This document shows positions 1 to 5,357 of a stretch of 5,357 bases of DNA, in pieces. The DNA is taken from the NCBI GenBank assembly GCA_946480495.1, contig CAMLKO010000093.1, positions 1-5,357 of the forward strand. Direction: 5' to 3'. The position numbers and the translations under genes are program-made. Source of the stretch: an uncultured Caulobacteraceae bacterium (lineage in GTDB: Bacteria; Pseudomonadota; Alphaproteobacteria; Caulobacterales; Caulobacteraceae). Numbering within the stretch: the stretch's first letter is position 1; every line of letters begins with the position of its first letter. The notes under the pieces were generated by a model. The model made no database searches and was not told the origin of the DNA. It saw only the letters and a program-made list of their open reading frames with translations.

Positions 1-33
1 CGACGTGTAGTCGTAATCTGATCCTGAACCCAT
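1..33 (-). CDS. possible N-terminus of a divergent minus-strand gene (partial)
   Basis: Reading leftward from an ATG whose first base is at 33, eleven codons are open to the window edge and give MGSGSDYDYTS. The Gly/Ser-rich then Asp/Tyr-rich start looks like a natural protein N-terminus, and this stretch is clearly less GC-rich than the rest. No convincing ribosome binding site is visible upstream. The alternative is that an upstream plus-strand gene ends in this stretch: the frame from position 3 stays open to a TGA at 45-47. The window edge prevents a decision and no function can be assigned. Confidence 0.25.
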   Translation of the reverse strand, partial: MGSGSDYDYTS

Positions 34-78
34 TGCGCCCAGCTTGAGGCCTGGCGTTCGCAACGCGCGCGCCTCCGC

Positions 79-423
79 GTGGAAGAGGCTGCGTCCGACC
101 GGTTTGTGCAGGTCGTGGCGAGGCTGCGGCACGGTTTTGCCGCGACCTCGATAGGGCGCGGCGGCCAGGCGAGGGCGTTGCTGCGCCTGATGGAGACGCC
201 TGGCCATCTGGTGTCGACCGAGACCCTGCTGTGCGCGGTGGCGCGCGGTGAGCCGCACGAGGTCGAGGAACAGCTGGTCAAGGTCCACATCAGCGTCCTG
301 CGCAAGGCCTTGCGGGGCCTTGGGATTGGCGCGGCGATCACCACAGTGTGGGGCCGGGGTTATCTGCTGGAGGTCGGCGCAGTAGAGCCGATCAAGGCGG
401 CGTTCCCGGGGCTGTTCGAGTGA
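79..423 (+). CDS. stand-alone winged helix-turn-helix DNA-binding protein (OmpR/PhoB C-terminal-like)
   Basis: This encodes a 114-aa protein that is essentially one winged-helix domain of the OmpR/PhoB effector type. The helix region spans about residues 30-80. The recognition-helix and wing signature is visible as V69-H-I71, L74-R-K-A-L78, then I87-T-T-V and W91-G-R-G-Y-L at residues 87-97, matching the 'HIxxLRxKL...IxTVxGxGYxL' pattern of this family. There is no receiver domain, so it is not a complete response regulator. Single-domain versions are common in alphaproteobacterial phages, presumably as transcription regulators. The GTG at 79 is the first usable start after an in-frame TGA at 25-27. 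No clear Shine-Dalgarno is seen, and the 17 codons upstream also look coding-like. It overlaps the next gene by GTGA at 420-423. The fold is well supported; DNA target and regulatory role are unknown. Confidence 0.8.
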   Translation: MEEAASDRFVQVVARLRHGFAATSIGRGGQARALLRLMETPGHLVSTETLLCAVARGEPHEVEEQLVKVHISVLRKALRGLGIGAAITTVWGRGYLLEVGAVEPIKAAFPGLFE

Positions 424-1250
424 CGCCCTCCCGTCCAGTCCTGCGATGGCATGGCGGCAAGTGGATGCTGGCCCCGTGGGTGATCGCCAACCTGCCGCCG
501 CACCGCATCTACGTCGAGCCGTTCGGCGGCGCGGCGTCGGTGCTGCTGCGCAAGCCTCGGGCCTATGCCGAAGTCTACAACGACCTCGACGGCGACGTCG
601 TGAATGTCTTCAGAGTGCTGCGCGAAGAAGAGACAGCGCGAAGGCTTGAACAACAACTTCGGCTGACGCCGTTCGCGCGCGACGAATTCTTCGCCGCCTA
701 TGACGAGGCCGACGATCCGGTCGAGCGGGCGCGGCGGATGATCGTGCGGTCCCTGATGGGGTTCGGGTCCGATGCGCCCAACATCACCAAGCCGACCGGC
801 TTTCGCGCCAACAGCAAAAGGTCCGGCACCACGCCGGCCATCGACTGGCGCAACTATCCGGACGCGATCAACGGGTTTGTCGAGCGGCTGAGCGGCGTCA
901 TCGTCGAGCATCGCGGCGCGCTGGTGGTGATGGCCGCGCACGACGGGCCCGACACGCTGCACTACGTCGATCCGCCCTACCTGCCGGAGACGCGCACGCG
1001 AAACCGGGGCGAGTATCGGCACGAGCTGACCGAGGCCGACCATCGCGCGCTACTGACGGCGCTGCGCGGGCTGGCGGGCAAGGTGGTGCTGTCGGGCTAT
1101 CCCGCGCCGCTCTACGACGCACACCTGCCGGACTGGAAGCGGGTGGAGCGACCGGCGCTGGCCGATGGGGCGTGGCCGAGATCTGAAGTGCTTTGGCTTA
1201 ACCCTGCGGCCACGCTTGAGCAGGGCCTGTTTGCGGAGCGGGTCGCATGA
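420..1250 (+). CDS. dam: DNA adenine methyltransferase, Dam/D12 class (DPPY)
   Basis: This 276-aa protein is a probable N6-adenine DNA methyltransferase of the D12 (Dam-like) class, transferring methyl from S-adenosylmethionine to adenine in a short DNA site. Motifs appear in Dam order: W10-H-G-G-K14 at the N-terminus (AdoMet-binding start), Y31-V-E-P-F-G-G37 (motif I equivalent), E51-V-Y-N-D-L-D57 (the conserved 'xxNDxxxxL' element), and catalytic D184-P-P-Y187. The length fits the family (about 270-280 aa). I chose GTG at 420 because the homologous N-terminus begins just before residue 7 and because it gives a 4-base overlap with the upstream stop. An ATG at 348 in the same frame would add 24 residues lying wholly inside the previous gene and unlike Dam proteins. 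No restriction endonuclease is next to it, so it looks like an orphan methylase, used for self-protection or regulation. The recognition sequence cannot be read from the protein; GATC is not assured. Confidence 0.92.
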   Translation: MTPSRPVLRWHGGKWMLAPWVIANLPPHRIYVEPFGGAASVLLRKPRAYAEVYNDLDGDVVNVFRVLREEETARRLEQQLRLTPFARDEFFAAYDEADDPVERARRMIVRSLMGFGSDAPNITKPTGFRANSKRSGTTPAIDWRNYPDAINGFVERLSGVIVEHRGALVVMAAHDGPDTLHYVDPPYLPETRTRNRGEYRHELTEADHRALLTALRGLAGKVVLSGYPAPLYDAHLPDWKRVERPALADGAWPRSEVLWLNPAATLEQGLFAERVA

Positions 1251-1924
1251 GCGGGCTCGCCATCAAGCCCCGCGATCACCGTGCCGTCATGGCCTCGCGC
1301 CGGGCGACGGCGCCCGACGACGCGGACTTCTACCCGACGCCGCCGTGGGGCGCGCGGGCGGGCGGGGAGCTGATCCGCCGGCTCGATCCGCGGGCGGGCT
1401 CGGTGTGGGAGCCGGCCTGCGGGCAGGGGCACATGGCGCACGGCCTGGCCGACTATTTCGAGACGGTGCACGTCTCCGACCTGGTCCCGTATGGGCGCCA
1501 CGCGATCTTCGACTTCCTGGGCGAGGCGCCGCCGCCGTTCGAGGCGGACTGGATCGTCACCAACCCACCGTTCTCCCTCATCGATCCGTTTATCCGGACA
1601 GCGCTGAAGCGCGCGCGACGAGGCGTGGCGATGCTAATGCGCGCGGGCGTGCTGGAGACGCCGGGACGCTACCGGCTGCTGTATCGCGATCATCCGCTGA
1701 CGATCTTCGCGCCGTTCATCGAGCGGCTGCCGATGCACAAGGGCCGCTGGGAGCCGAACGGCTCGACCGCCGCCTTCTACGCCTGGTTCGTATGGCTCGT
1801 GCCCGCCCCGTCGCGGCGGCTGGCGACCATCGTGCCGATTCCGCCCGGCACGCGCGACCGGCTCAAACGACCGGGCGACCTGAAAGACCTTCCCAACATC
1901 CCGAGATCACCGAGGCGCTGCTGA
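1247..1924 (+). CDS. class I SAM-dependent DNA methyltransferase (NPPF), probable N6-adenine
   Basis: This 225-aa protein is a second methyltransferase, unrelated in motif layout to the one upstream. It has D27-F-Y-P-T-P-P-W34, common near the N-terminus of phage adenine methylases, then motif I V53-W-E-P-A-C-G-Q-G-H62 for AdoMet binding, an acidic residue after the next strand (V76-S-D78), and catalytic motif IV D101-W-I-V-T-N-P-P-F109. The NPPF tetrapeptide indicates methylation of an amino group, most likely adenine N6 in DNA. No separate target-recognition domain is obvious, as in small phage orphan methylases. The ATG at 1247 overlaps the previous stop (ATGA) and has a GGAG at 1235-1238 with good spacing, so the start is well supported; Met15 is a less likely alternative. 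The C-terminal ~20 residues are Pro/Arg-rich and probably disordered. Substrate specificity is unknown. Confidence 0.88.
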   Translation: MSGLAIKPRDHRAVMASRRATAPDDADFYPTPPWGARAGGELIRRLDPRAGSVWEPACGQGHMAHGLADYFETVHVSDLVPYGRHAIFDFLGEAPPPFEADWIVTNPPFSLIDPFIRTALKRARRGVAMLMRAGVLETPGRYRLLYRDHPLTIFAPFIERLPMHKGRWEPNGSTAAFYAWFVWLVPAPSRRLATIVPIPPGTRDRLKRPGDLKDLPNIPRSPRRC

Positions 1925-2931
1925 TGGCCGACGACACCCTGATCTCGTGGGCGGACAAGACCCACAACCACTGGATCGGCTGCATGAAGGTCGGTCCGGG
2001 GTGCGACGGCTGCTACGCCGAGCACCTGATGGATACGCGGCTGGGGCGGGTGACGTGGGGCGCGCCCGGCGTCGGCGTCGGCACGCGGGCGCTGACCAGC
2101 GAGGTGAACCGCCGGAAGCCGCTGGCGTGGAACCGGCAGGCGGCGAAGGACGGGACGCGGCCGTTCGTGTTCTGCAGCTCGCTGGCGGATGTGTTCGACA
2201 ACCAGGTCCCGCTCGAATGGCGAGCCGAGCTGTTCGCGCTGATCGCGGCGACGCCTAACCTGACGTGGCTGCTGCTGACCAAGCGGCCGCGGAACATCGT
2301 CGACCTGTTCGATGCGCTGGCCGGCGTCCTCGATGACGACGTCTATCGGCGCAAGGCCTGGCCGGCCAACGCCGCCATCGGCTGCACCGTCGTCAACCAG
2401 GAGGAGGCGGACCGGGACGTGCCGGTGCTGCTGGCGGCGAAGGCGGCGCTGAACCCGGCGTTCGCGTTCCTGAGCATGGAGCCGCTGCTGGGGCCTGTGG
2501 ACCTGACGCGCGTCTGCATACTGCCGAAGGTTCCCGACTCGATCCGGGCGGGCATTCACCTCGACAGCCTACGCGGGCGCTACGTCGAAAGTGGGCTGGC
2601 CTATCAAGGCGATTGGGACATCAACGGCCCGGCGCCGACAGGCCCGGCCGTGGGTCTCGACTGGGTCATAACGGGTGGCGAGACCGACCAGGGCAAGCAC
2701 AAGGCCAGGCCGTCGAACCCTCAATGGTTCCGGGATCTGCGCGACCAGTGCGCGGCGGCAGGCGTCGCCTTCCACCACAAGCAGAACGGCGAATGGGCGT
2801 CGGTTTCCGAGGTCGAGGGGCCGGGTGACCACTTCACCTTTCCGGATCACCGCTCCGTTCGCCGCGTCGGCAAGAAGCGCGCCGGTCGCCTGATCGACGG
2901 CCGCGAGCACAACGCCCGGCCGGGCGCATGA
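1924..2931 (+). CDS. DUF5131 / phage Gp37-Gp68 family protein with C-x6-C-x2-C motif
   Basis: This 335-aa protein matches the phage Gp37/Gp68 family (DUF5131, PF07505) along its whole length. Signatures in order: N15-H-W-I-G-C20 ... P25-G-C27-D-G-C30-Y-A-E33, giving cysteines 20, 27 and 30; L118-T-K-R-P122; S184-M-E-P-L-L-G-P191; W247-V-I-T-G-G-E253; and K286-Q-N-G-E-W291 near the C-terminus. The three-cysteine motif recalls radical-SAM iron-sulfur proteins. The family is often found with a partner (TcmP, three-Cys-motif partner), which is absent here. No biochemical activity is firmly established as far as I know; a radical-SAM-like modification role is inference. Start ATG at 1924 shares one base with the previous stop (TGATG) and has GAGG at 1912-1915. 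The same frame is open upstream to 1165, but that part lies inside the methyltransferase gene and is not real. Its place directly after two DNA methylases suggests a DNA-modification or counter-defence function. Confidence 0.9.
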   Translation: MADDTLISWADKTHNHWIGCMKVGPGCDGCYAEHLMDTRLGRVTWGAPGVGVGTRALTSEVNRRKPLAWNRQAAKDGTRPFVFCSSLADVFDNQVPLEWRAELFALIAATPNLTWLLLTKRPRNIVDLFDALAGVLDDDVYRRKAWPANAAIGCTVVNQEEADRDVPVLLAAKAALNPAFAFLSMEPLLGPVDLTRVCILPKVPDSIRAGIHLDSLRGRYVESGLAYQGDWDINGPAPTGPAVGLDWVITGGETDQGKHKARPSNPQWFRDLRDQCAAAGVAFHHKQNGEWASVSEVEGPGDHFTFPDHRSVRRVGKKRAGRLIDGREHNARPGA

Positions 2932-3176
2932 AGCCGCGCGAGCCCGTCAACGGCGACCTGTTCGGCAAGCCCGCCAAGCCGGTGCGCGACGTCACGCCGG
3001 TGAGCCTGCCGATGCGGGTGGCGGCGCAGACCGACGACGCCTGGCTGCTGGTCATCGACGGCCAGAAGGGCGGCGCCAAGTGGGTGCCCAAGTCGCGGGT
3101 GACGCGCGGCGAGGGGCTCGAGGAAAACCTGTTCACCATGGCGCGCTTCGTCGCCGCCGAGCGGGGCTGGCTGTGA
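2928..3176 (+). CDS. conserved-looking small phage protein, unknown function (82 aa)
   Basis: This encodes an 82-aa soluble protein with no signal peptide or membrane segment. I do not recognise a named family. The central part, A38-W-L-L-V-I-D-G-Q-K47 followed by K51-W-V-P-K-S-R57, resembles a pattern seen in many small phage proteins in which a 'WIPKS'-like strand follows a short beta hairpin (often read as single-strand-DNA-related or unknown); that is a recollection of pattern, not an assignment. The tail is helical (L64-F-T-M-A-R-F-V-A-A-E75). The ATG at 2928 overlaps the DUF5131 stop (ATGA), and the stop overlaps the next small gene (GTGA), so it is co-translated with its neighbours. 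Codon use is the same as in the surrounding genes. Confidence 0.72.
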   Translation: MKPREPVNGDLFGKPAKPVRDVTPVSLPMRVAAQTDDAWLLVIDGQKGGAKWVPKSRVTRGEGLEENLFTMARFVAAERGWL

Positions 3177-3292
3177 GTCCGCTGCGGTCGTCCTTTGTCG
3201 CCTGGGCCCGTGAAAAGAACGAGGCCTACGAGGCTTACCGCCGCCGCTGGCGCGCGGCGTTCGCCGAGTGGATGCAGCGGGGGCGTCCATGA
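3173..3292 (+). CDS. 39-aa basic/aromatic microprotein, unknown function
   Basis: A 39-residue reading frame starts at GTG 3173 and ends at TGA 3290-3292. It overlaps the previous stop by GTGA and the next start by ATGA, so it exactly fills the gap between two longer genes. The product is mostly one predicted amphipathic helix (about residues 8-36), rich in Arg, Glu and aromatics: W11, Y19, Y22, W26, F30 and W33, with a basic R23-R-R25 patch. It has no membrane segment. Small proteins with a similar 'AxxxxYRRRW' look occur beside helix-turn-helix replication genes in phages, but I cannot name a family. The frame is also open upstream inside the previous gene; the overlap geometry favours 3173. 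The precise fit between both neighbours is the main support for it being real. Confidence 0.6.
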   Translation: MSPLRSSFVAWAREKNEAYEAYRRRWRAAFAEWMQRGRP

Positions 3293-4275
3293 GCCCGCTG
3301 CCGACCACCAAGGAAGATCTGCTGAAGTGGGTCAACGACCAGCAGCAGCTCGATCCGACCTCAAAGTTCATCCTCTATCGGCTGGCGCAATTCGCCGACG
3401 CCGACTGCTGCGCCTGGTCGAAGGTCGAGACGCTGGCCACGGCGGTCAACGTTTCCCGCCGCACGGTGCAGCTGCGCATCGCGCGCTTCGAGGGCGAGGG
3501 GCTGATCCGGCGCACGGGCCGAGCGCACGAGCTGACGCCGGGTCCGAAGGGCGCGCGGGTGGTGGCGATCTACCAGCTGGCGCCGCTGGTTCCGGGGCTC
3601 GGCGCGCCGGCGGATTCGGGTGCAAATTCTGCACCCCAATCGGCCATTGGGGTGCAAGAAAGCGACCATTCGGGTGCAGCTGGATTCACCCCTAATGAAC
3701 TGAATAGAACTGAGGTTAGAGCTGACGCTCTAACCGTGTGCGAGCGCGCGCGGAGCGCCGGGTTCGACGAGGCCCTGGCGGCCTATCCGCAGACCGGGCT
3801 GGCGGTAACCGACTTCCCCCGGGCCCGGCAGGCGTGGCTGTCCGTCACCGCCGAGGTTGCGCCGGACGTGCTGCTGGCCGCGATCGCCGACTATGTGGCC
3901 CGCGACCGGGCGCTGGCCAAGGGCGACTACGGCGCGCCGGCCTTCGAGAAGTGGCTGCTGAGCGAGCGGTGGCGGGCCTGGCTGCCGGCGGATGTGCGGG
4001 GTGCGGCGGCCGGCGCTGTTGCACCGGCGAAGGCCGCGGGGCCGCGGTTCCCGGGGCCGTCCGATCTTCGTGACGACTTCCTGGACAGCTTCGGCGAGGG
4101 AGCGACGGCCAACTACCTCGACCCCTGCCGCTGGGACGGCGAGCGCCGGGTGCTGCTGGCCCGCACCGGCGTCGCCGCCGCCTGGTTCGGCTCGACGGCC
4201 TGGTGGTGGCTGAGCAAGCACGAGTTGCGCGTCGAGCGCTTCAACCAAACAGCAAACGCGGGAGTGGGCGGATGA
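3289..4275 (+). CDS. helix-turn-helix protein, candidate phage replication initiator with internal origin
   Basis: This 328-aa protein has an N-terminal winged helix-turn-helix at about residues 25-78: S44-K-V-E-T-L-A...V55-S-R-R-T-V-Q61...G71-L-I-R-R75 is the classic 'LAxxxxVSRRTVxRxIxxLxxxGLI' signature. A low-complexity linker (about 95-150) follows, then a helical middle region with D170s-A190s 'FPRARQAWLSV' and K-W-L-L-S-E-R-W. A C-terminal part (about 259-310) has 'ANYLDPCRW...LLARTGVAAAWF', which resembles the N-terminal domain of DnaA; that match is by eye only. Architecture and position suggest a phage replication initiator analogous in role, not sequence, to lambda O. Strengthening this, the linker DNA carries an iteron-like repeat array. 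No helicase or helicase loader is visible in the window, so host factors or genes elsewhere would be needed. ATG 3289 gives an ATGA overlap with the preceding microprotein and an upstream G-rich stretch. A transcription regulator is the main alternative. Confidence 0.75.
   Translation: MSPLPTTKEDLLKWVNDQQQLDPTSKFILYRLAQFADADCCAWSKVETLATAVNVSRRTVQLRIARFEGEGLIRRTGRAHELTPGPKGARVVAIYQLAPLVPGLGAPADSGANSAPQSAIGVQESDHSGAAGFTPNELNRTEVRADALTVCERARSAGFDEALAAYPQTGLAVTDFPRARQAWLSVTAEVAPDVLLAAIADYVARDRALAKGDYGAPAFEKWLLSERWRAWLPADVRGAAAGAVAPAKAAGPRFPGPSDLRDDFLDSFGEGATANYLDPCRWDGERRVLLARTGVAAAWFGSTAWWWLSKHELRVERFNQTANAGVGG
3614..3696. repeat. iteron-like array: four 11-bp ATTSGGGTGCA repeats plus one degenerate copy
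   Basis: Copy 1 ATTCGGGTGCA at 3614-3624 (+); copy 2 is the reverse complement of ATTGGGGTGCA at 3630-3640 (-); copy 3 ATTGGGGTGCA at 3646-3656 (+); copy 4 ATTCGGGTGCA at 3668-3678 (+). Only the fourth base varies, C or G. Centres are 16, 16 and 22 bp apart. A degenerate fifth copy on the minus strand, with one extra base, lies at 3685-3696. The copies fall in different codon phases (DSGA and HSGA for copies 1 and 4, IGVQ for copy 3, antisense for copy 2), so the repetition is at DNA level and not a protein repeat. Likely binding sites for a replication initiator or repressor. Confidence 0.8.
3714..3735. repeat. perfect 9-bp inverted repeat with 4-nt loop
   Basis: GGTTAGAGC at 3714-3722 pairs perfectly with GCTCTAACC at 3727-3735 around a TGAC loop. 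No T-run follows, so it is not a typical intrinsic terminator. It closes the A+T-rich end of the candidate origin and could be a protein-binding palindrome, a primer or RNA structure, or a hairpin exposed when the origin melts. Confidence 0.7.
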
Positions 4276-4832
4276 CGGGATCTGGGCTGAAGGATCGGCC
4301 GGTCGATGCGAGCACGCCCTACTCGGCCTGGATCGTGGTGCTGACCAAGGGCCAGTGCGAGCGGCCGACCAAGGCGCAGCTGGAGGCGCAGGGGTTCGAG
4401 GTCTATCTGCCGATGCGCCCGGTGCGCCATCGCTTCGGCGGGGTGCATCCGGTGCCCCTGTTCCCGCGCTACCTGTTCGTGCGGATCACCCGCGAGGCCT
4501 GCCGCTGGCAGGCGCTGTTCGGGACGCGGGGCGTGACGCGGGTGATGTGCACGATGCAGCGGCCGATCGGGGTGCGTAACGAGTTCATCGAGAAGGTGCG
4601 GGCGCAGGAGCTCAAGGTGCTCGAGGGCTTCGGCGCCGAGGGCGCGGCGGCGGCCGTCAGCTTCAAGCCGGGCGACCGGGTGGTGACGCTGGACGGTCTG
4701 GTGCAGGGCATCTTCCAGGAGGACATTGACGGTCGTCGAGTCGCGATCCTAATCTCCCTCATCGGCGGTGATTCGCGCATCGCCACGGTCGACATGCGGA
4801 AGCTTGCTCATCCCCAGTCGGTCGCGTCCTAG
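4272..4832 (+). CDS. NusG/RfaH-like transcription elongation factor (phage specialised NusG)
   Basis: This 186-aa protein has the two-domain plan of the NusG family. The NGN domain (about residues 17-115) opens with Y17-S-A-W-I-V-V-L-T-K26, where the family has 'WYvlxtk', and contains E43-V-Y-L-P47 and the diagnostic L63-F-P-R-Y-L-F-V70. The KOW domain (about 131-180) has F131-K-P-G-D-R-V near its start and G-L-V-Q-G-I-F following, as in NusG/RfaH KOW motifs. NGN binds the beta-prime clamp helices of RNA polymerase and promotes processive elongation; KOW contacts ribosome or Rho. The length matches ordinary NusG, but the phage location and divergence suggest a specialised paralogue acting on particular transcripts. 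ATG 4272 overlaps the previous stop (ATGA), with GGAG at 4261-4264. It is the last gene before a hairpin, an ops-like site, a terminator and the HNH gene, which suggests antitermination into the late genes. Confidence 0.88.
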   Translation: MTGSGLKDRPVDASTPYSAWIVVLTKGQCERPTKAQLEAQGFEVYLPMRPVRHRFGGVHPVPLFPRYLFVRITREACRWQALFGTRGVTRVMCTMQRPIGVRNEFIEKVRAQELKVLEGFGAEGAAAAVSFKPGDRVVTLDGLVQGIFQEDIDGRRVAILISLIGGDSRIATVDMRKLAHPQSVAS

Positions 4833-4857
4833 GCCACACAGACCCCGCCCTGCAGCC

Positions 4858-4880
4858 CATGGAGCCAGAGTCGCTCCGTG
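4858..4880 (+). other. leader hairpin, 8-bp stem with 7-nt loop
   Basis: CATGGAGC at 4858-4865 pairs with GCTCCGTG at 4873-4880; seven Watson-Crick pairs and one G-U pair, 7-nt loop. It lies 25 bases after the NusG-like stop and ends immediately before the ops-like element. There is no T-run, so it is not a simple terminator. In RNA it could pause polymerase or be a recognition element. Confidence 0.5.
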
Positions 4881-4892
4881 TGCGGTAGCCTT
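4881..4892 (+). promoter_or_regulatory. ops-like element (possible NusG/RfaH-paralogue recruitment site)
   Basis: TGCGGTAGCCTT matches the known ops consensus GGCGGTAGNNTG at 8 of the 10 specified bases, including an uninterrupted GCGGTAG. I see no other GCGGTAG in the window. It lies 48 bases downstream of the NusG-like gene and just upstream of a terminator. The ops role is established for E. coli RfaH; its use by this phage protein is inference and a chance match remains possible. Confidence 0.4.
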
Positions 4893-4894
4893 CC

Positions 4895-4930
4895 AGCCCG
4901 CCCGGTCTAGCCGCGGCGGGCTTTGTCGTT
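4895..4930 (+). terminator. rho-independent-type terminator upstream of the HNH gene
   Basis: AGCCCGCC at 4895-4902 pairs perfectly with GGCGGGCT at 4915-4922 around a 12-nt loop, followed by TTTGTCGTT, a weak U-tract. It closes the eight-gene operon and lies 10 bases or so before the HNH start. Because readthrough would be needed to express the packaging genes from the same promoter, it is a natural target for antitermination. Confidence 0.65.
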
Positions 4931-4940
4931 CCTAAGGGAC

Positions 4941-5303
4941 ATGGGCCGACTGCGCACGCCAACGGCGCGGATCGCCAGCGCTCCTGAGCGGATGCGCCGG
5001 GTCACCGACGCTCACGGCCACGACGACCGGGGCGAGGCCGGCCGGTCCTGGTATCACCTGGCTCGCTGGAAGCATCCCGAGCGCGGCCTCCGCATCCAGG
5101 TCCTGACCCGCGACCTGTTCACCTGCCAGTGGCCCGGCTGCGGTCGCCTCGAGGCCGACACCTCCCGCCTGGTGGCCGACCACAAGGTCCCCCATCGCGG
5201 CGACCCGACGCTGTTCTGGTCCGAGGCCAACCTCTGGACCCTCTGCAAACCCTGCCACGACCGCCTCAAGCAAGCCGCCGAAGCGAACGCCGTTCGCCGC
5301 TGA
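4941..5303 (+). CDS. phage HNH endonuclease (packaging-associated type)
   Basis: This 120-aa protein is a small HNH nuclease. Zinc-binding cysteines are C62-x4-C67 and C102-x2-C105. The HNH residues are D80-H81 in 'VADHKVPHRGD', N97 in 'EANLWTLC' and H106 in 'CKPCHDRL', the layout of the beta-beta-alpha-metal fold. The N-terminus 'MGRLRTPTARI' is like that of many phage HNH proteins encoded just upstream of terminase. In several phages such an HNH protein works with the terminase at cos cleavage, which is known for HK97-like phages. ATG 4941 fits the homologous N-terminus. AAGGGA lies at 4934-4939, too close for an ideal ribosome binding site, so the start is slightly uncertain; a TTG at 4923 would lie inside the terminator. 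It is the first gene after the terminator, so it probably begins the late transcription unit. All catalytic residues are present. Confidence 0.9.
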   Translation: MGRLRTPTARIASAPERMRRVTDAHGHDDRGEAGRSWYHLARWKHPERGLRIQVLTRDLFTCQWPGCGRLEADTSRLVADHKVPHRGDPTLFWSEANLWTLCKPCHDRLKQAAEANAVRR

Positions 5304-5357
5304 CCCCCCGGGGGGGGGGGCAAAACTCCACGGGGCCCCTCCTCCGGACCCCGGCCC
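5304..5357. other. C6G11 tract and GC-palindromic region after the HNH gene; candidate packaging (cos) region
   Basis: Directly after the HNH stop come six C (5304-5309) and eleven G (5310-5320), then CAAAACTCC and the palindrome GGGGCCCC at 5332-5339, then more G/C-rich sequence to the window end. No reading frame is supported here. In many phages the cos site or packaging initiation site lies between the HNH gene and the small terminase gene, so a packaging role is plausible; this is inference, and the terminase itself is outside the window. Confidence 0.4.

Follow-up and report, generated by a model that had tools for sequence, protein, structure and literature searches.

In lambda and Shiga toxin (Stx) phages, the initiator gene O carries in its middle a set of iterons, each an inverted repeat, together with an AT-rich tract (PMC7466680, as far as its accessible text goes). 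Here we describe a comparable arrangement in a 5,357-nucleotide stretch of DNA from an uncultured Caulobacteraceae bacterium (GenBank assembly GCA_946480495.1, contig CAMLKO010000093.1, positions 1 to 5,357 of the forward strand), called the window below. Its predicted replication initiator gene at 3289-4275 has, like O, iterons and an AT-rich tract midway along the reading frame. The iteron sequences differ: the accessible part of PMC7466680 gives CCCTC...GAGGG for lambda, whereas the window has GGGTGCA. Lambda reaches DnaB via P, according to the portion of PMC8508860 available to us; the predicted C-terminus of the window protein resembles DnaA domain I. No P-like helicase loader gene is present among the eight window genes scanned in this 5.4-kb piece. 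Judged from sequence, the gene very probably contains a lambda-type intragenic origin that is bound and fired by its own initiator.

The O-like gp56 of Pseudomonas phage MD8 also has repeats inside its gene (PMC8508860), and the accessible part of that paper gives neither their sequence nor a wider family. Mesorhizobium phage vB_MseS-P1 shares with the window the gene order initiator, NusG, HNH and an array in the linker of its initiator, gp27; its iteron is AGGGTGAC, in five copies, rather than GGGTGCA. Plasmid iterons are generally located outside the rep gene. In iteron plasmids (RK2, R6K and others), the initiator is bound to repeats beside an unwinding element (PMC4980987, in its accessible part), as we propose for the window. 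Among the papers listed in searches of the open-access literature, we found no description of GGGTGCA iterons in phage initiators, a weak negative given that most subscription journals lay outside its scope.

An iteron array in the linker of an O-like initiator

The features of the proposed module are as follows.

3289..4275, + strand: O-like replication initiator gene, 328 residues (PHROG matches)
3307..3579, + strand: winged-helix DNA-binding domain, residues 7-97 (AlphaFold2 model; PDB fold matches)
3457..3495, + strand: recognition helix, residues 57-69 (helix in AlphaFold2 model; residues 57, 58 and 62 associated with iteron class)
3601..3747, + strand: predicted disordered linker, residues 105-153, encoding iterons, AT-rich stretch and hairpin
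3614..3640, both strands: palindromic iteron with exact half-sites GGGTGCA at 3618-3624 (+) and 3630-3636 (-), gap N5
3646..3656, + strand: single iteron half-site (exact), core 3650-3656
3668..3691, both strands: second convergent pair, GGGTGCA at 3672-3678 (+) and one-mismatch GGGTGAA at 3685-3691 (-), gap N6
3684..3733: AT-rich stretch, candidate unwinding element, 42% GC against a window mean of 70%
3714..3735: inverted repeat with a 9-bp stem, 3714-3722 with 3727-3735, loop TGAC
4051..4245, + strand: C-terminal DnaA-domain-I-like domain, residues 255-319 (predicted fold)

The protein matches PHROG families 270 and 1032 ("replication initiation protein") and 391 ("replication initiation O-like") at E values from 3e-15 to 3e-11. 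Its score against Pfam HTH_36 (PF13730) is 23.3 bits, just below the gathering cut-off of 25, which is exceeded by the homologues P0002, P0004, L001, L061 and L101; P0003 stays under it. The window protein has no match at E <= 0.1 to PF04492 (Phage_rep_O, the lambda O family), to which L061 scores 14.1 bits against a cut-off of 28.7, and no plasmid Rep family is among its Pfam matches. By analogy, the protein is lambda O-like in its presumed working, yet outside the Pfam family of lambda O. A sequence search of the PDB gave nothing convincing. The AlphaFold2 model has a mean predicted local distance difference test score (pLDDT) of 71 and a predicted template modelling score of 0.33. The winged-helix block reaches pLDDT 75-87, except for residues 81-90 at 59, and winged-helix chains head the list of PDB fold matches for the whole model (best E value, 0.006). 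The linker falls below pLDDT 50; past it come more confident helical and mixed parts, up to residue 319. Of known folds, DnaA domain I (PF11638) matches the predicted C-terminus best, and the DnaA_N profile scores above its cut-off in the homologues P0004 and L101.

Between the winged-helix and C-terminal parts, ATTSGGGTGCA occurs at four exact sites plus a fifth with one core mismatch. The earlier note had claimed four 11-mers at 3614-3678 with centre spacings of 16, 16 and 22 bp, and all of them are exact in position, strand and spacing. The array starts about 330 bp into the gene. It lies inside the linker-encoding stretch, since residues 105-153 span the iteron coordinates. The degenerate fifth site, also put forward earlier, is present on the minus strand with the core GGGTGAA; L101 likewise has GGGTGAA there, while L001 and L292 have a perfect GGGTGCA. 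One further exact GGGTGCA is found outside the gene, at 4441-4447.

The proposal of a lambda O-like initiator/origin module is supported by the PHROG matches, the linker array, the near-fixed geometry in relatives found without use of the motif, the AT-rich stretch 3' of the array, and the DnaA-domain-I-like C-terminus. From these features we infer the steps of binding, dimerisation, melting, helicase recruitment and origin activity. The winged-helix domain would bind GGGTGCA-N5-TGCACCC palindromes and extra half-sites in its own linker DNA (3614-3691), probably as a dimer. Several initiator molecules in helical phase would wrap the DNA and help to open the AT-rich stretch 3684-3733, and the DnaA-domain-I-like domain would bring the replicative helicase onto the opened DNA. 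Because the protein has a winged-helix domain and its gene contains palindromic sites, it could instead be an autoregulator that binds there to block or tune transcription, with no role at an origin; transcription regulators do predominate among the top PDB matches for the whole model. We consider this very unlikely: the sites are some 330 bp inside the gene, no sigma-70 promoter-like match occurs from 2900 to 4950, and the replication PHROGs, the AT-rich stretch and the DnaA-domain-I-like domain suit initiation better.

The array is conserved in close relatives

Close relatives were found by protein alignment against viral contigs, blind to the motif: L001, followed by five loci, L291 to L295. 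L291 is the same gene as L001, L292 and L293 are one identical gene, and L295 is the L101 gene, which the pattern scan described below found too. All four distinct genes (5/5 loci) have the array in the same place and in a near-fixed layout. Within the gene, half-sites start at 329, 341, 361, 383 and 396 in the window; at 320, 332, 351, 373 and 386 in L001; at 305, 317, 336, 358 and 371 in L101; and at 311, 323, 342, 364 and 377 in L292. L294 has starts at 328, 341, 361 and 383, with a weaker TTCACCT about 13 bp beyond. The first four half-sites are oriented + - + + in the window and its close relatives, and the fifth is on the minus strand. In L294, all four clear half-sites have changed in concert to GGGTGAA, and its recognition-helix residues are SDRQVQ; these are SERTVQ in L001, L101 and L292 and SRRTVQ in the window. 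In two relatives found by pattern, L061 and L042, the layout is different, with seven and five sites.

From residue 141 onward, P0002 and the window protein are 93% identical (174/188), but only 55% at residues 13-97 (47/85) and 33% in the linker at 111-140 (10/30). Judged from the protein alone, the DNA-binding domain and the array therefore seem to have been exchanged together, as one unit. No relative was returned by a single-protein scan of the viral contigs or by the A1 scan of genome contigs, and a tblastn search of named phages with the window protein gave no match at E 1e-5.

A wider family shares the motif and its spacing

We scanned for the triple pattern GGGTGCA-N(3-14)-TGCACCC-N(3-14)-GGGTGCA. 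The viral contigs contain at least 120 such stretches; among the matches listed, 117/120 lie in open reading frames (ORFs) that match a helix-turn-helix (HTH) profile seeded from the window and members of the pattern-found set, the misses being L014, L048 and L066. For the rearranged control heptamer GGTGGCA, the collection has 19 stretches, 5 of them in ORFs matching the same profile. At least three control matches (L124, L133 and L137) have GGTGGCA arrays in the linker, and these look like a variant iteron. Genome contigs also contain at least 120 triple-motif stretches, with 55/120 of the matches listed in matched HTH ORFs. Many are from Pseudomonas; others come from records under the names Kutzneria, Bacillota, Thermoactinomyces, Chloroflexi, Bacteroidetes and Synergistaceae, and several are metagenome bins. 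The actinobacterial contig JAUSNB010000005.1 (L149, L181) has three separate GGGTGCA triple matches, all outside matched HTH ORFs.

Of the 173 genes obtained, 49 (28 viral, 21 genome) remain when no two may share 60% identity or more. These 49, taken without the window, have 4-10 copies of GGGTGCA each and 6.6 sites per gene, where synonymous shuffles give 0.82, and 47/49 genes have a count reached by 0/200 shuffles. With neighbours more than 40 bp apart left out, the gap is N5 in 80/103 convergent pairs (GGGTGCA-N5-TGCACCC) and 14-15 in 71/90 direct pairs, a direct spacing of 21-22 bp. The window, with gaps N5 (convergent) and N15 (direct), fits both rules.

The heptamer could be an accident of codon use, as the cores encode GA, AP, GV and GA in a low-complexity linker of Gly-Ala and Ala-Pro residues. 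The earlier note had dismissed a protein repeat on grounds of codon phase and strand. Within the window that argument is thin, because the four core phases are 2, 2, 1 and 2; across the 49 genes it holds better, with all six phase/strand classes present, albeit unevenly. A coding origin is also very unlikely on other grounds: 0/20,000 synonymous shuffles of the window gene reach four GGGTGCA (shuffle mean, 0.19), and the family keeps fixed DNA spacings. Rather than relatives with the same peptide and other codons, the reverse is seen. As a family of 11-mers with at most one mismatch within 120 bp, four sites are reached by 0/300 shuffles and three by 36/300.

The array might also be a self-immunity or decoy element inside the gene, like aba of the BstA defence protein. 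That short DNA element, too, lies within a prophage gene, one whose product has a putative DNA-binding domain (PMC8585504). As the accessible part of PMC8585504 describes it, aba covers the start codon of the BstA gene and comprises 63 bp with two CCCGCC repeats. The window array does not span a start codon; it lies mid-gene, about 330 bp into an O-like initiator, and GGGTGCA recurs 4-10 times in each of the 49 relatives. We regard an aba-like role as extremely unlikely.

Iteron classes and the recognition helix

Protein- or family-based searches, blind to the motif, gave 117 new loci. From these a sample of 31 genes (25 dereplicated and 6 not) was defined as ORFs of at least 150 codons scoring at least 35 bits by the HTH profile. 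Several results weigh against a general intragenic origin marked by GGGTGCA, or are weak for the window taken alone. Homologues without repeats, named in the earlier note as evidence against its proposal, are absent among close kin, as seen above, but only 14/31 motif-blind O-like genes have an array: 11 at <=10/200 shuffles, two of them (L338 and L361) doubtful, plus L291 and L295 (GGGTGCA) and L294 (GGGTGAA). Beyond the window's clade, 0/27 motif-blind genes have four GGGTGCA. In genome contigs, 65/120 of the triple-motif stretches listed are outside matched HTH ORFs. Within the window, allowing two mismatches gives five sites against 2.09 expected, which is not striking (15/200 shuffles). 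In two runs, 59/200 and 45/200 shuffles of this GC-rich gene alone contain some exact heptamer four times within 250 bp, a non-significant outcome that would suit the codon-use explanation.

GGGTGCA is thus one iteron class of several, since only 3/31 motif-blind genes, all of the window's clade, have at least four copies and 14/31 have an array; in-gene arrays are common and not universal at this sensitivity. Other in-gene motifs are GGGCGCA (L278), TGGTGAA (L267), TTGGCAC (L357) and GGGGGTC (L362). The O-like gene L263, in a genome chosen by pattern, has twelve CGTGTCC half-sites in its linker, with four convergent pairs at gap N7.

Six named phages, reached by tblastn from two pattern-found proteins, were examined. 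Gene 54 of phage JBD68 has seven GGGTGCA; 6 of the 10 sites in this phage lie within 33737-33839, in that gene, and the GC skew of this related phage is uninformative on origin position. Phage SC_8_H2H8_2017 and gene O of Bordetella phage PHB09 each have seven GGGTGCA, Gordonia phage DatBoi has five GGTGACA, and vB_MseS-P1 has its five AGGGTGAC copies in the initiator gene. The gene examined in Arthrobacter phage Galaxy has no clear array.

Co-variation of the linker repeats with the recognition helix, a check proposed earlier, finds support when 53 genes of the GGGTGCA class are compared with 14 from other classes. Genes resembling a representative at 60% or more were left out, as were those lacking a clear array and six whose arrays are doubtful (L338, L140, L303, L361, L272 and L355). 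The three most associated columns all belong to the recognition helix (residues 58, 57 and 62); the association at these and at residue 46 is matched by 0/500 label shuffles, a statistic that ignores kinship.

These data may point to a portable initiator and origin cassette in phages of several bacterial phyla, a view to which we give slightly less than an even chance. It would combine one winged-helix fold, a palindrome with mostly N5 gaps, and 21-22 bp phasing, with half-sites (GGGTGCA, GGGTGAA, GGGTGAC, GGGCGCA, GGTGGCA, TGGTGAA) that drift with a few recognition-helix residues; the DnaA-domain-I-like part of the window's clade could reach the helicase with no need for a phage loader. To our knowledge, few phages other than the classical models have had their origins mapped. 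If half-sites do drift in step with the recognition helix, origin sequence could be predictable from protein sequence. With a sequence rule locating the origin inside the initiator gene, origins would be assigned across many prophages in a single step, and a testable protein-DNA code would make a clean system for the study of initiator and origin co-change. The DnaA-domain-I-like part offers a concrete, testable guess for helicase recruitment.

An AT-rich stretch and a hairpin follow the array

The 50-mer starting at 3684, directly 3' of the array, has the lowest GC of all 5307 in the window. Similarly, the 50 bp 3' of the array are under the gene's own GC in 45/49 diverged genes (median percentile, 5%). 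GAACTGA occurs twice in the AT-rich stretch, at 3697-3703 and 3707-3713. We considered tandem GAAC as an element of this part and rejected it for the window, which is not above synonymous shuffles (385/1000 reach the observed value). In the 49 diverged genes, the corresponding count is 66 against 42 expected, and 24/34 spacings are 9-12 bp.

Classical descriptions of the lambda origin include an inverted repeat after the AT-rich tract. The hairpin at 3714-3735 would be a conserved additional part of the origin in the window. It is present in 7/7 clade members examined (window, L001, L101, L292, L294, L061 and L042), with the loop TGAC, TAAC or TGGC. Out of 500 synonymous shuffles, the stem length is reached by 0 for the window, 8 for L001, 67 for L101, 13 for L292, 88 for L294 and 0 for both L061 and L042. 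The hairpin covaries: in an alignment of the seven, 8/9 pairs show changes in both arms, and pairing is kept in 93.7% of cells, a count biased towards structure because each row was placed by its best hairpin. The hairpin is weak in the 49 diverged genes, with a mean stem of 3.2 against 1.0 in shuffles and a stem of at least 8 in 6/49 only.

Treated as a single strand with DNA parameters, 3608-3740 folds well (z -5.6), as it would if the inverted pairs served as mRNA hairpins. This idea is barely credible, given that the direct half-sites 21-22 bp apart are unable to pair with each other, Rfam gives no match at gathering scores, and the heptamer sequence itself is conserved, beyond pairing.

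Gene context

One further feature adjoins the initiator.

4272..4832, + strand: NusG-like gene (PF02357; phrog_6386, antiterminator)

The NusG-like gene and then an HNH gene occupy 4272-5303. The genes of vB_MseS-P1 are annotated in the same order, followed by terminase genes; by analogy, therefore, late antitermination may be the role of the NusG paralogue. Ahead of the initiator, 423-2931 holds two DNA methyltransferase-like genes and a DUF5131 gene. A search of phages with the whole-window DNA gave 46 records; in the best 20 of the 46, coverage is confined to portions of the methyltransferase and DUF5131 genes. Near the left end, 79-423 encodes a small protein with an OmpR-type winged-helix domain (Trans_reg_C). 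Near the right end, six C are followed by eleven G at 5304-5320, possibly an assembly or end artefact.
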